This document shows, one piece after another, positions 4,230 to 52,830 of a stretch of DNA of 64,000 nt. The first letter of the stretch is position 1. Each line of letters begins with the position of its first letter. Position numbers and translations under genes: made by a program. The stretch covers positions 545,849 to 609,848 of the forward strand of contig RDOB01000002.1 in the NCBI GenBank assembly GCA_011364965.1. The letters are read 5' to 3'. Below the pieces are notes generated by a model, which was not told the origin of the DNA, ran no database searches, and saw only the letters and a list, made by a program, of their open reading frames with translations. The stretch is from Candidatus Heimdallarchaeota archaeon (GTDB taxonomy: Archaea; Asgardarchaeota; Heimdallarchaeia; Hodarchaeales; Hodarchaeaceae).

Positions 4230-4652
4230 ATGGGTACTTTTGCTAAAGCCCGAATTGAAGCTATTATGAAGTCGGCTGGCGCCGAAAGAATCTCTGCTAA
4301 CGCAATATCTCGAATGGATGAACTTTGTGCCGAATTTGGTGAGAAAGCTGCGAAAACTGCAATCAACCTTGCCTCAACCGCAGGAAGGAAAACTGTTCAA
4401 GCAGATGATATTAAATTGGCTGTCTCCAAGATAGGAGACCCGAAATATTCTCCCACAAAAGGTAAAGCATTCGCAAAGGCTCGCGTGGAAAAAGTGATAA
4501 GAGAAGCTGGCGCTTCTCGGGTTTCTGCAGACGCTGTCGATTATTTAAACCAAAAAATCGAAGCTCAATGCTATACTCTTGCGAAATCAGCCATTGAGAT
4601 AGCCCGTCATGCCAAACGCAAGACTATTAAAGACACTGACATAATTCCTTAA
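4230..4652 (+). CDS. Archaeal histone doublet (two fused histone folds)
   Basis: Two histone-fold repeats: AKARIEAIMKSAGAERISANAI...GRKTVQADDIKLAV and AKARVEKVIREAGASRVSADAV...AKRKTIKDTDI. Confidence 0.93.
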   Translation: MGTFAKARIEAIMKSAGAERISANAISRMDELCAEFGEKAAKTAINLASTAGRKTVQADDIKLAVSKIGDPKYSPTKGKAFAKARVEKVIREAGASRVSADAVDYLNQKIEAQCYTLAKSAIEIARHAKRKTIKDTDIIP

Positions 4653-10940: not shown

Positions 10941-12278
10941 ATGAAAGATGATATTTTTTCACAATATGATCCTCTAGAAGAAGCTTTGCAAGAGGGTATC
11001 AATCCTGAGGAGTATATTATCGGGAGTTACATGGTTCAACTTGGTCCCAGAATGGATCCATGGTACCTGGGTCGTGCAGCAGCTTGTGAACAGTCTACAG
11101 GTACTTGGGTTCCTGTACCAGCTAATACTCCTGAGCTTCGTGCGAGATTTGGAGCAAAAGTTATCGGAATTTACGAAGTTCCCAGTTATGAATTTGAAAT
11201 CCCTAAAGATGTTGAAGAACGTAATTATATTTATCAAATTGCATTTCCTGCGCTGAATCAGATTAATTCTATAGGTTTAATGTTAACAGCGGTTCATGGA
11301 AACATCAGCATGGGCGGAAAACTTAAATTATTGGACATACGTTTCCCTAAAAAATGGATAAAACAATTTCAAGGTCCAAAATTTGGTATTGAGGGAATTC
11401 GAAAACTTTTGAAGGTACCTGACCGTCCATTACTTAATAACATGATAAAACCTTGCTCTGGTTGGACCCCAGAAGTGGGAGCCCAACTTTTATATTCTGC
11501 TGCGTTAGGAGGCTGCGATGTAATAAAGGATGACGAATTAATAGCTGATATGGATTATAACAGGATTATAGATCGTGTACCACTGATGATGGAGGCAATA
11601 GACAAAGTTAGAGATGAAACTAATGAAGAAACTCTGTACACGTGCAATATTACCGACAATTTAACCAAACTCAAACAGAATGCACTTGCTGTTCAGGATG
11701 CAGGGGGCAATGCACTCATGCTTAATTATCTTGTTGTCGGACTTCCTGCCTTACGTATGCTAGCTGAAGATCCAGATATTAAATTACCGATTCTAGCTCA
11801 TATGGATTTTGCAGGAGCTTTTTATGAAAGTCCATATTCAGGTGTTTCTTCTTTTCTAATCATGGGAAAATTTGCTCGACTTGCAGGAGCAGACATTGTT
11901 GTTTATCCCGCCCCATATGGCAAAGCACCTTTTTTAAAAGAAAAATACATGGGTTTAGCAAAAGCGCATCGTTATCGAATGCACCATTTAAAACCAACCC
12001 TACCAATGCCCTCTGGAGGGATTACACCTGGGATGGTCTTACGAGTGATGCAAGATCTTGGAAATGATGTCATGATAGGCTCAGGTGGAGGAATACATGC
12101 ACACCCAGATGGACCAGTAGCTGGCGCAAGAGCATTTCGGCAAGCTATTGAGATTGGGATGAATGACATGGTCAAAGCGAGTGAGGATTTTGAGGATTAC
12201 GTTGAGGATCATGAGGATAGCTACCCTGAACTAGCTCGAGCGATGGAAACTTGGGGAGTCGCAGATACGAGATTCTAA
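10941..12278 (+). CDS. RuBisCO-like protein (large-subunit superfamily, probably form IV)
   Basis: EQSTGTW, MIKPCSGW, GGCDVIKDDE, PSGGITPGM, GSGGGIHAHPDGP; substitutions at several catalytic positions. Confidence 0.9.
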   Translation: MKDDIFSQYDPLEEALQEGINPEEYIIGSYMVQLGPRMDPWYLGRAAACEQSTGTWVPVPANTPELRARFGAKVIGIYEVPSYEFEIPKDVEERNYIYQIAFPALNQINSIGLMLTAVHGNISMGGKLKLLDIRFPKKWIKQFQGPKFGIEGIRKLLKVPDRPLLNNMIKPCSGWTPEVGAQLLYSAALGGCDVIKDDELIADMDYNRIIDRVPLMMEAIDKVRDETNEETLYTCNITDNLTKLKQNALAVQDAGGNALMLNYLVVGLPALRMLAEDPDIKLPILAHMDFAGAFYESPYSGVSSFLIMGKFARLAGADIVVYPAPYGKAPFLKEKYMGLAKAHRYRMHHLKPTLPMPSGGITPGMVLRVMQDLGNDVMIGSGGGIHAHPDGPVAGARAFRQAIEIGMNDMVKASEDFEDYVEDHEDSYPELARAMETWGVADTRF

Positions 12279-30913: not shown

Positions 30914-31200
30914 ACTTAACTACTCGAGTGTTTATATCGCCAATTTGCTAGCTTTTAGGGAGAAAAGGATCTAAAATTTCCAGTAATAGAGGAGGATAGA
31001 AATAATTTTGAATCCTCCGTATAGCTATTTCAGATTAAATATCAATATTATACAATAAGGTTAATATTTTCAATTTTTTCTTGTTTGAACTGCATCGTAA
31101 GTGTATGATTATTCAAGATAACAGTTAAAACACTTGTTTTTCTTGTCTTTAGTAATACAGTTACGAATATTGCACTGTAAACATCAATAACGTGAAAAAA

Positions 31201-31668
31201 ATGTCTGAATCTCAACCTGAAGAATATACAACAAAAACTATAAGTGATTTGACCCCCTTTGATAGGAAGCTTCAAGTCTCGTTTGTGGTAATTGAAAAAG
31301 GTGAAACTCGATCAATCACCAGTAAAAAAACTAATGAGGAGCATCATCTCGCTGATGTCAAAGTGGGCGATGGCACTGGAACCATTATTCTGACCCTCTG
31401 GGACGAAACCATTGACAAGGTCACGGAGGGTGAAACCTATGTCATAAAAAATTCCTATGTCAACGTATTTCAAGAACATATGCGTCTTGCACTCGGAAAA
31501 TGGGGAACTTTGGAAGATTCCGAGGAAAAGATTGGATTAGACTCTGTGAACATGGAAAATGATCGCTCATCTGAGACTCATCAAGGTAGACCCCGACGAA
31601 GACGGTATGGTGGTCGACGAGATGATCAAAGAGGTCGATCCTTCAACGAAGAGAAGTATAGATACTAA
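31201..31668 (+). CDS. OB-fold single-stranded DNA-binding protein (SOSS-B/RPA-like) with Arg/Gly-rich tail
   Basis: ISDLTPFDRKLQVSFVVIEKGETRSI...LADVKVGDGTGTIILTLWDE; tail RPRRRRYGGRRDDQRGR. Upstream GTG (31192) is an alternative start. Confidence 0.85.
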   Translation: MSESQPEEYTTKTISDLTPFDRKLQVSFVVIEKGETRSITSKKTNEEHHLADVKVGDGTGTIILTLWDETIDKVTEGETYVIKNSYVNVFQEHMRLALGKWGTLEDSEEKIGLDSVNMENDRSSETHQGRPRRRRYGGRRDDQRGRSFNEEKYRY

Positions 31669-39363: not shown

Positions 39364-40314
39364 TTGACTCGGGAACAATCCGATGAGATTTCGTATGAAA
39401 AGGTGACTTCCGGGCCAATTACAACTGGTAAATCATCAATTAAAGGGAGTAATCTGGTTGTTGTTCTTGCAGATGAAGGTGGATTACCAGTTTATACAAG
39501 ATCAATTCATATTGACAAATCAGGTTATATTCATGAAAGAGAAAACGAAACATTTGATCCAAAAAATGAAAGCGTAGTTTTGATATCTGGGCTAATTGAA
39601 GCCATTATGCAATTAAAAGAAATCGTTCGGCCAACATTAATTGATATCACTCTTGATAAAGAATCAGATAAACCAATATATGTGGATTATGCAAAAGCTC
39701 CTGACGGAATTTCCCTCCTCTCCTTATCAACTTCACCTGAGTTTCAACAGCTTCCAATTAACTTGCTTAAGTATTATACTCCTCTTAGAGGAGAATTTGA
39801 CAAATCCATAGCAAATTGGAACGAGAGATTTGTAGAAATTGTTGAAGATCCTATTAATGAAGATGCTGCCATCTACTGGAGAATTTTATCACAAATTAAG
39901 CGAGAATTATCTGAATTTGTTTCATTTATCTTGGTTTATGATCCAGATGGTAATTATCTTTTTTCAACCGCACGAAATCAGGAACGAGGAAGCCTACCGG
40001 ATCCATTATTGGATTCGATTTCTAAATATATAAAACAAGAATATCTTCTTCGGAAATATCGGAATAATGTTTCCCTGATTGGAGCAAAGCGCTTACGTGA
40101 TTCTGTTATATGGCATTTCAAATGTTTTGACAAAATTTTTGTATTCTTCACTTATCGTGTTCCTGACCTTCATACTTTCTCTACTTTACAATCTGAAATG
40201 ATTACTTTTATTTCTAATAACTTGGAGCGATTCATTGAAACAGCTAACGTTCATTCCCTTTCAAGTAGTATTAAAAAGAACTTTAATTCTACTAGGTTTA
40301 TTTTTCTATCCTGA
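39364..40314 (+). CDS. Protein with two longin/roadblock-like segments
   Basis: 'NLVVVLADEGGLPVYTRSIHIDKSG...ESVVLISGLIEAIMQLKEIV' and 'FVSFILVYDPDGNYLFSTA...FDKIFVFFTY' follow a longin-like beta-beta-alpha pattern; TTG start. Confidence 0.5.
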   Translation: MTREQSDEISYEKVTSGPITTGKSSIKGSNLVVVLADEGGLPVYTRSIHIDKSGYIHERENETFDPKNESVVLISGLIEAIMQLKEIVRPTLIDITLDKESDKPIYVDYAKAPDGISLLSLSTSPEFQQLPINLLKYYTPLRGEFDKSIANWNERFVEIVEDPINEDAAIYWRILSQIKRELSEFVSFILVYDPDGNYLFSTARNQERGSLPDPLLDSISKYIKQEYLLRKYRNNVSLIGAKRLRDSVIWHFKCFDKIFVFFTYRVPDLHTFSTLQSEMITFISNNLERFIETANVHSLSSSIKKNFNSTRFIFLS

Positions 40315-40399: not shown

Positions 40400-41176
40400 T
40401 TGATAAAAATGTCAGAATCAGATAAATCCCCAATATTAGAAGCAGCAAAATCAAGTAGATCAGCATGTAGATTATGTCATCAAAAAATAATGAAGGGAGA
40501 GTATCGAATAGGTATCCCTTACGACTTTACCACTTCTGATGGTAATATAGTGACTTCTTATCGTTATCACCATCCAAAATGCGTTCCAGTTAGAAATATC
40601 GACTTGGTAACAAAATTAATTAAAAATAACACCACAATTGAATCAGCTATCAAAGAATTAATATTTAAAGAACTAGATGAAGCGAAAAAGGCGCAAAAAG
40701 ACAGATCATCTTCTCCTTACATTGAGGAATCTAAGAGTTCAAGAAGTACATGTCGACTTTGTGAAGAAAAAATTCAAAAAGAGACATACCGCGTTGCAGA
40801 ACCAGAACAAGTGGAATTGGAGGATGGAAGGTCTTTTTCTTCACATAAATATTTCCATATAAACTGCTATTTAGACCATCAGAAAAATCCGAAGGAAATT
40901 TTTGATAAACTTACACAAGTTTCCATAAACAGAAATATTTTTACAAGATCTGAAGCTGCGCTTTTAGAAAAGAAGTTAGATCAAATTTTATCATCAGATA
41001 AATTGAGTTCAGATATTCTATCAATGATTTCAGATAAACCTATTGATTTAGATCAGTTAAAGCACCGTGCACAAGAATTGGGAGTTTCTAATGAAACATT
41101 AATGAAAAGTATCGAAAGAGGTTTGCTTCAGGGAATTTATTTTGAACCTTCACCAGGAAAAATTCAAAAATTATAA
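40400..41176 (+). CDS. Tandem PARP-type zinc finger protein
   Basis: Two copies of the zf-PARP pattern: AKSSRSACRLC-x31-HPKC and SKSSRSTCRLC-x31-HINC, both CX2CX31HX2C with basic K/RSSR lead-in. Confidence 0.8.
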   Translation: MIKMSESDKSPILEAAKSSRSACRLCHQKIMKGEYRIGIPYDFTTSDGNIVTSYRYHHPKCVPVRNIDLVTKLIKNNTTIESAIKELIFKELDEAKKAQKDRSSSPYIEESKSSRSTCRLCEEKIQKETYRVAEPEQVELEDGRSFSSHKYFHINCYLDHQKNPKEIFDKLTQVSINRNIFTRSEAALLEKKLDQILSSDKLSSDILSMISDKPIDLDQLKHRAQELGVSNETLMKSIERGLLQGIYFEPSPGKIQKL

Positions 41177-51795: not shown

Positions 51796-52830
51796 GTGAC
51801 TACTCGAATTATCATAGAATCGTCCTTTCTTAGTGAAATTCCCCCTAAACCCGGTTTATATAGATTATATGATACAAATAATGAATTACTTTACATAGGA
51901 GCATCATCGAATCTTCAAAATCGAATAAAACAACATTTCTCCCATAATAGTACTAAGGAACGAAAACGAGGGGTAATTAGGCAATATACGAGCTATCTAG
52001 AATTTGAAAGTTATGATTCGGTTGAGAGGGCATTTGAGGAGGAACGTATCGAGATTTGGACGAAGCAGCCTCCTTATAATAAACGTGGGATTACAGATCT
52101 GAGTTATTCCTTCATTATTTTTCGCAAAAAAGGACAAATAAAAACTCTATGCTTATCTAATAGAGAAGCGGATAAATTAGATCAGGATGACGAATTTTTC
52201 AGAATGAATATGTCAAAAAAATATGTTTTAGACGCTTTAAATTCGATTAGAAAATATTATCCATTTTGTTTTCCCTCATCTACCACGAAATGTTGGGATC
52301 ATTTAATTGGTCTGTGTTATGGATCATGTATGCAAGATGACCTTGATCAGAGTACTTATTGGAAAAATTCTCTAAATTTAATGGACGCAATTTCAGGTAA
52401 AAATAATGCATTAGTTAACGAAATTCATGATGAGTTGACAAGCTTGATCATTAAAATGGAGTTTGAAAAAGCTCAAAAAATATCTAATGCTTTGGAATCG
52501 TTAAAAACTCTTAGATTGAAATATGGAGGACAAGGTGTAATAAGAGACCTTGATATATTTGAATTTAAGAAGAAAAATGATATATGGGTTGTGAAAATTC
52601 ATTTTCTTCGTAAAACATCCCTTATTAAAGAGGAATTGATGGTTATTAAAGGTACAGAGAGAGATGAAGCGGAATCTTATACCTTTCTCAAATTTTTATT
52701 GAAATTTTATCGTTTTACTGGTTTTCCTCCAATCAAAATTAAAATAAAAAATTATTTTCCTTCCCCCTATTATCATATTTTAAAGAATTGGTTCCAACAT
52801 TATTTTGGGGTTCCAATCATCATCATCTAA
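51796..52830 (+). CDS. UvrC-like protein: GIY-YIG domain, Cys-rich segment and UVR-like helix, lacking the C-terminal RNase H-like nuclease
   Basis: PGLYRLYDTNNELLYIGASSNLQNRIKQHF (GIY-YIG); KCWDHLIGLCYGSC; LIIKMEFEKAQKISNALESLKTL (UVR-like); ends at '...WFQHYFGVPIIII'. Confidence 0.8.
   Translation: MTTRIIIESSFLSEIPPKPGLYRLYDTNNELLYIGASSNLQNRIKQHFSHNSTKERKRGVIRQYTSYLEFESYDSVERAFEEERIEIWTKQPPYNKRGITDLSYSFIIFRKKGQIKTLCLSNREADKLDQDDEFFRMNMSKKYVLDALNSIRKYYPFCFPSSTTKCWDHLIGLCYGSCMQDDLDQSTYWKNSLNLMDAISGKNNALVNEIHDELTSLIIKMEFEKAQKISNALESLKTLRLKYGGQGVIRDLDIFEFKKKNDIWVVKIHFLRKTSLIKEELMVIKGTERDEAESYTFLKFLLKFYRFTGFPPIKIKIKNYFPSPYYHILKNWFQHYFGVPIIII

Follow-up and report, generated by a model that had tools for sequence, protein, structure and literature searches.

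Single-strand-break repair in eukaryotes has a hallmark in the zinc fingers of PARP1 and DNA ligase III (LIG3). In PARP1, Arg18 of the first finger (F1) and Arg122 of the second (F2) insert into the minor groove at the break, and the exposed bases are contacted by Phe44 and Val48 of F1 and by Leu151 and Ile154 of F2 (PMC4678113). A survey from 2014 reported that PARPs are absent from archaea (PMC4245714). No description of archaeal PARP-type fingers was found in the open-access literature; database annotations of such archaeal proteins probably exist. A further module relevant here is the winged helix of archaeal Rpa2, which serves mainly in protein-protein contacts, with primase and PolD as partners (PMC11686378). 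We analyzed a stretch of 64,000 nucleotides (the window) from a member of the Hodarchaeales, a proposed sister group of eukaryotes (PMC10307638), in which one gene encodes two PARP-type fingers and a predicted winged helix (Table 1).

Table 1. Positions of the finger-protein gene, its domains and two other genes in the window.
Feature	Position	Strand	Remarks
SSB-type OB-fold gene	31192..31668	+	same conserved neighbourhood as finger gene
Conserved upstream gene, uncharacterised	39364..40314	+	identity within the genus 51-62%; most species have it paired with the finger gene
Finger-protein CDS	40409..41176	+	255 aa: zf-PARP, helical linker, zf-PARP, helices, winged helix
PARP-type zinc finger 1	40439..40654	+	PF00645 48.2 bits, invariant residues, fold; ligands C20, C23, H55, C58
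Helical linker between fingers	40655..40723	+	predicted helices 61-73 and 79-101
PARP-type zinc finger 2	40724..40900	+	PF00645 40.7 bits, fold; ligands C115, C118, H150, C153
C-terminal helix and winged-helix domain	40955..41173	+	fold nearest to P. abyssi Rpa2 winged helix

The open reading frame at 40400-41176 of the forward strand is a real gene, with 37-53% identical orthologues in nine further genomes of its genus. It is near-universal there, zf-PARP being found in 10 of 12 genomes. The predicted frame begins with a TTG at 40400, but the conserved N-terminus (MSSDRSDDPKVEFAKSGR and similar) favours the ATG at 40409 as the start; the gene stops at 41176, and the protein ends in a conserved QKL. 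An origin of the finger motifs by chance or artefact was ruled out by the Pfam scores and a shuffle control, in which a degenerate finger pattern matched twice in the window and never in 100 shuffles. A mobile origin of the gene was likewise ruled out, as there was no phage or plasmid match and species of the genus share a conserved neighbourhood.

Both fingers have the form C-X2-C-X31-H-X2-C and are preceded by AKSSRSAC and SKSSRSTC, respectively, as read in the preliminary description. The assignment to the PARP type made there was borne out by Pfam: zf-PARP (PF00645) matches the whole protein with an E-value of 2.6e-23 and 83 bits. When the genome was searched, either finger by itself exceeded the Pfam cut-off of 39.3 bits. 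No further zf-PARP locus was found by this search in the 2.97-Mb assembly at E <= 1. The matches cover positions 1-70 and 1-59 of the 87 in the profile, so that the C-terminal part of the canonical finger (profile positions about 70-87) is divergent or missing; it is not recognisable in either Hodarchaeal finger. This part is not needed to pass the cut-off. Among solved structures, the PARP1 fingers and the LIG3 finger are the nearest on sequence alone. An AlphaFold2 model built on 14 relatives (mean pLDDT 88.9; pTM 0.54, so that the relative placement of the domains is unreliable) agreed with the expectation of a PARP-like structure, as its best 28 Foldseek matches in the PDB are all PARP1 F1F2, Zn1 or Zn2, the LIG3 finger or a plant PARP finger, with a probability of 1.00. 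Thus, profile, sequence match and predicted fold identify the two fingers as genuine zf-PARP domains.

With F1 and F2 of PARP1 the protein shares the tandem zf-PARP arrangement, the CCHC ligands, the KSxR lead-in, the minor-groove arginines and the predicted fold. The zinc ligands are invariant in 14 tandem proteins, as are Arg17/Arg112, Lys29/Lys124 and Arg33/Arg128. Arg17 aligns with Arg18 of PARP1, and Arg112 with Arg122. Between the second and third ligands the spacing is X31 in both fingers, whereas the PDB sequences of PARP1 have X28 in F1 and X30 in F2. The finger hairpins are 1-3 residues longer than those of PARP1, and the base-stacking positions therefore cannot be mapped onto them with confidence. 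Unlike PARP1, the protein lacks PADR1, WGR, HD and catalytic domains and ends in a winged helix. The LIG3 finger belongs to the same domain family and matches in sequence and fold, but LIG3 has a single finger and a ligase domain. In the window protein Pfam detected neither the PARP catalytic domain (PF00644), whose absence had already been noted, nor an ATP-dependent ligase domain. No PF00644 match exceeded the cut-off in 224 Asgard genomes either, where one sub-threshold fragment was found.

The C-terminus had been described as novel and helical. This holds for a helical stretch, but the remainder is predicted to be a winged helix. Winged helices are a common fold, and a sequence-profile search of the domain against the PDB returned nothing relevant; the weak sequence matches include MCM, RuvB and other winged helices and do not single out Rpa2. 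RPA_C (PF08784) was rejected as a test because it is unspecific, with matches in 14 of 14 control genomes. By fold, the domain is closest to the winged helix of Pyrococcus abyssi Rpa2, which was matched in both the primase complex (9f26) and the PolD complex (9f2a; probability 1.00, TM 0.80 to the target, 1.8 A over 62 columns). It is the sole non-PARP match at probability 1.00 among the best 50 Foldseek matches. On the basis of the fold, the domain would be of the Rpa2 type, with OB-fold fusions of its relatives as circumstantial support. By fold, the window protein may share the C-terminal winged helix with archaeal Rpa2 and eukaryotic RPA32, and a sister species (G049) combines it with an OB fold; the window protein differs from them in having two PARP fingers and no OB fold.

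Among Asgard archaea, zf-PARP is present in 58 of 228 genomes, in several architectures. The arrangement in Hodarchaeales is zf-zf-winged helix, and their matches in a DNA pattern scan include Ca. Hodarchaeum mangrovi and Hodarchaeota MAGs. In G049, one species of the genus, it is zf-OB-zf-winged helix. The inserted OB fold is of the SSB type (2e-13) and 56-65% identical to Hodarchaeal SSBs, including 56% to the SSB gene in the window. Proteins of other Heimdallarchaeota (family f6) have the order zf-OB-zf, with profile matches to archaeal replication factor A (4e-6), SSB and PARP1, and a further family (f5) has one finger and a possible OB fold. As the OB fold is SSB-like in G049 and more RPA-like in f6, this suggests that OB folds joined PARP-type fingers more than once. 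Thor- and Heimdallarchaeota also have proteins with an uncharacterised beta-rich N-terminal domain and one finger, in which the canonical C-terminal finger part is present; this single finger matches the whole of PARP1 F1 (TM 0.83, about 30% identity).

Several other Asgard proteins were noted. A simpler relative from the same order (G054, L035:1968-2462; 165 aa) has a single zf-PARP finger and a possible winged-helix C-terminus. In a protein of the Thorarchaeota-type family f28 (G184, L063:8208-8981) the finger scores 29 bits, which is below the cut-off, and the N-terminal domain shows a weak match to PD-(D/E)XK nucleases (E 0.12), making it a possible break-directed nuclease. A 613-aa protein (G008, L033:1993-3831) carries an N-terminal PARP-type finger followed by about 550 residues without a Pfam match.

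Outside the Asgard phylum, matches were obtained by the DNA pattern scan, and their numbers are lower bounds. Among the matches listed, proteins of about 180 aa that consist of two fingers alone are common, mainly in Myxococcota and also in Planctomycetota, Melainabacteria and others. They share with the window protein the two fingers, a similar spacing, P-[FY]-x-E before finger 2 and the lack of a catalytic domain; they are shorter and have no winged helix. Because bacteria have such stand-alone versions, a two-finger layout without a catalytic domain is neither specific for archaea nor evidence of a PARP1 ancestor. Other contexts were also observed: at two Myxococcales loci (L073 and L129) DUF4132 proteins end in a zf-PARP finger, and in an Anaerolineae protein (L078) two fingers are fused to ankyrin repeats. 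A 1373-aa protein encoded in a record titled Euryarchaeota archaeon CPC89 (L159:2278-6396) combines zf-PARP with SNF2 helicase domains, and its finger groups with those of eukaryotes; the contig is possibly a contaminant from a eukaryote or a virus. Small ORFs (67-93 aa) on three IMG/VR contigs (L181-L183) contain a finger-like KSSR/KSGR...CxxC motif, whose last pair of ligands differs from that of PARP-type fingers.

The preliminary description regarded the protein as predating or parallel to PARP1 and LIG3, which is not supported as stated. The finger trees contain few alignment columns and only three eukaryotic fingers. Bacterial F1 and F2 separate in them, and Asgard F2 tends to join bacterial F2. 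A quick tree places archaeal F1 with bacterial F1 and archaeal F2 with bacterial F2, as would be expected if a bacterial two-finger protein had been acquired horizontally and the winged helix added later, the finger duplication being older than the split between the archaeal and bacterial families. The frequency of stand-alone proteins in bacteria fits such an acquisition, but the support values of 52 and 80 are weak and a grouping of Asgard F1 with Asgard F2 was not rejected. The quick tree is also not optimal, since each of the five constrained trees scored higher than this unconstrained one, and AU tests rejected none of the five alternative groupings. A bacterial acquisition is thus possible, though doubtful. 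Still less likely is descent of the Hodarchaeal two-finger protein, as a direct relic of the PARP1/LIG3 sensor, from the ancestor to which the PARP catalytic domain was later added. It would agree with the proposed position of the Hodarchaeales beside eukaryotes, with one FastTree run that places eukaryotic fingers among Asgard single-finger proteins (SH 0.556) and with the match of Thor/Heimdall fingers to entire PARP1 F1. However, the closest match of PARP1 is that single-finger family and not the family of the window protein, the AU tests reject no alternative, and human F1, human F2 and the plant PARP finger form one group (95), hinting that the PARP1 pair may have duplicated independently. 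A combined scenario, in which Hodarchaeales have a PARP-like sensor with an RPA-type winged-helix output in place of a catalytic domain and the eukaryotic PARP1/LIG3 finger was inherited from such Asgard proteins, also appears unlikely, if marginally less so than the direct relic.

The surroundings of the finger gene are a stable neighbourhood with no obvious repair operon. The order dph2, uncharacterised gene, finger gene is kept in 8 of 9 neighbourhoods examined in the genus; in G051 one extra gene is inserted and in G049 the neighbourhood is rearranged. The preliminary description placed the finger gene beside dph2 rather than known repair genes; besides dph2 and many metabolic genes, the conserved neighbourhood also includes the SSB gene, a Xer-type recombinase and a GIY-YIG nuclease. 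The longin-like character ascribed to adjacent proteins found no support, as the two neighbours of the finger gene have neither a Pfam nor a PDB-profile match. Among Asgard archaea, only Hodarchaeales are reported to combine dph genes with a single canonical EF-2 (Eme et al., PMC10307638), and the dph2 gene beside the finger gene is consistent with this. Also noted in the window were a GIY-YIG nuclease at 51796-52830, for which there is a weak UvrC RNase H-like match, a 140-aa protein at 4230-4652 that contains two histone folds (two stretches matching PF00808), and a RuBisCO large-chain homologue (10941-12278).

In our view the protein is somewhat more probably than otherwise a sensor of DNA breaks or single/double-strand junctions that acts as a recruiting adaptor. 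The two fingers would each cap a nick, gap or end from one side, in the manner of F1 and F2 of PARP1, with the arginine of KSSR entering the minor groove and hydrophobic hairpin residues facing the exposed base pair. In place of poly(ADP-ribose) synthesis, the winged helix would then recruit a partner, as its counterpart does in the RPA of archaea and eukaryotes; the most plausible partners are primase, PolD and repair enzymes. In the relatives with an OB fold between the fingers, single-strand binding would be added, giving an RPA-like protein with PARP fingers. Signalling by poly(ADP-ribose) itself is unlikely, because no PARP catalytic domain exceeded the threshold in the 224 Asgard genomes. 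A different role of the fingers, for example in binding intact duplex DNA, RNA, protein or structured chromatin, is rather improbable: the missing canonical C-terminal finger part and several prokaryotic fusions that are not specific for repair (ankyrin, DUF4132) would fit such a role, but the arginines of the minor groove do not vary, and damaged or single-stranded DNA is suggested by the fusions of fingers to SSB/RPA-type OB folds and to a possible nuclease.

The occurrence of a PARP-type finger without the enzyme, joined to RPA-type modules, in a proposed sister lineage of eukaryotes makes it testable whether break sensing existed before ADP-ribose signalling. Its wider spread, including the two-finger proteins of Myxococcota, provides a set of small proteins with which nick sensing in prokaryotes may be tested.
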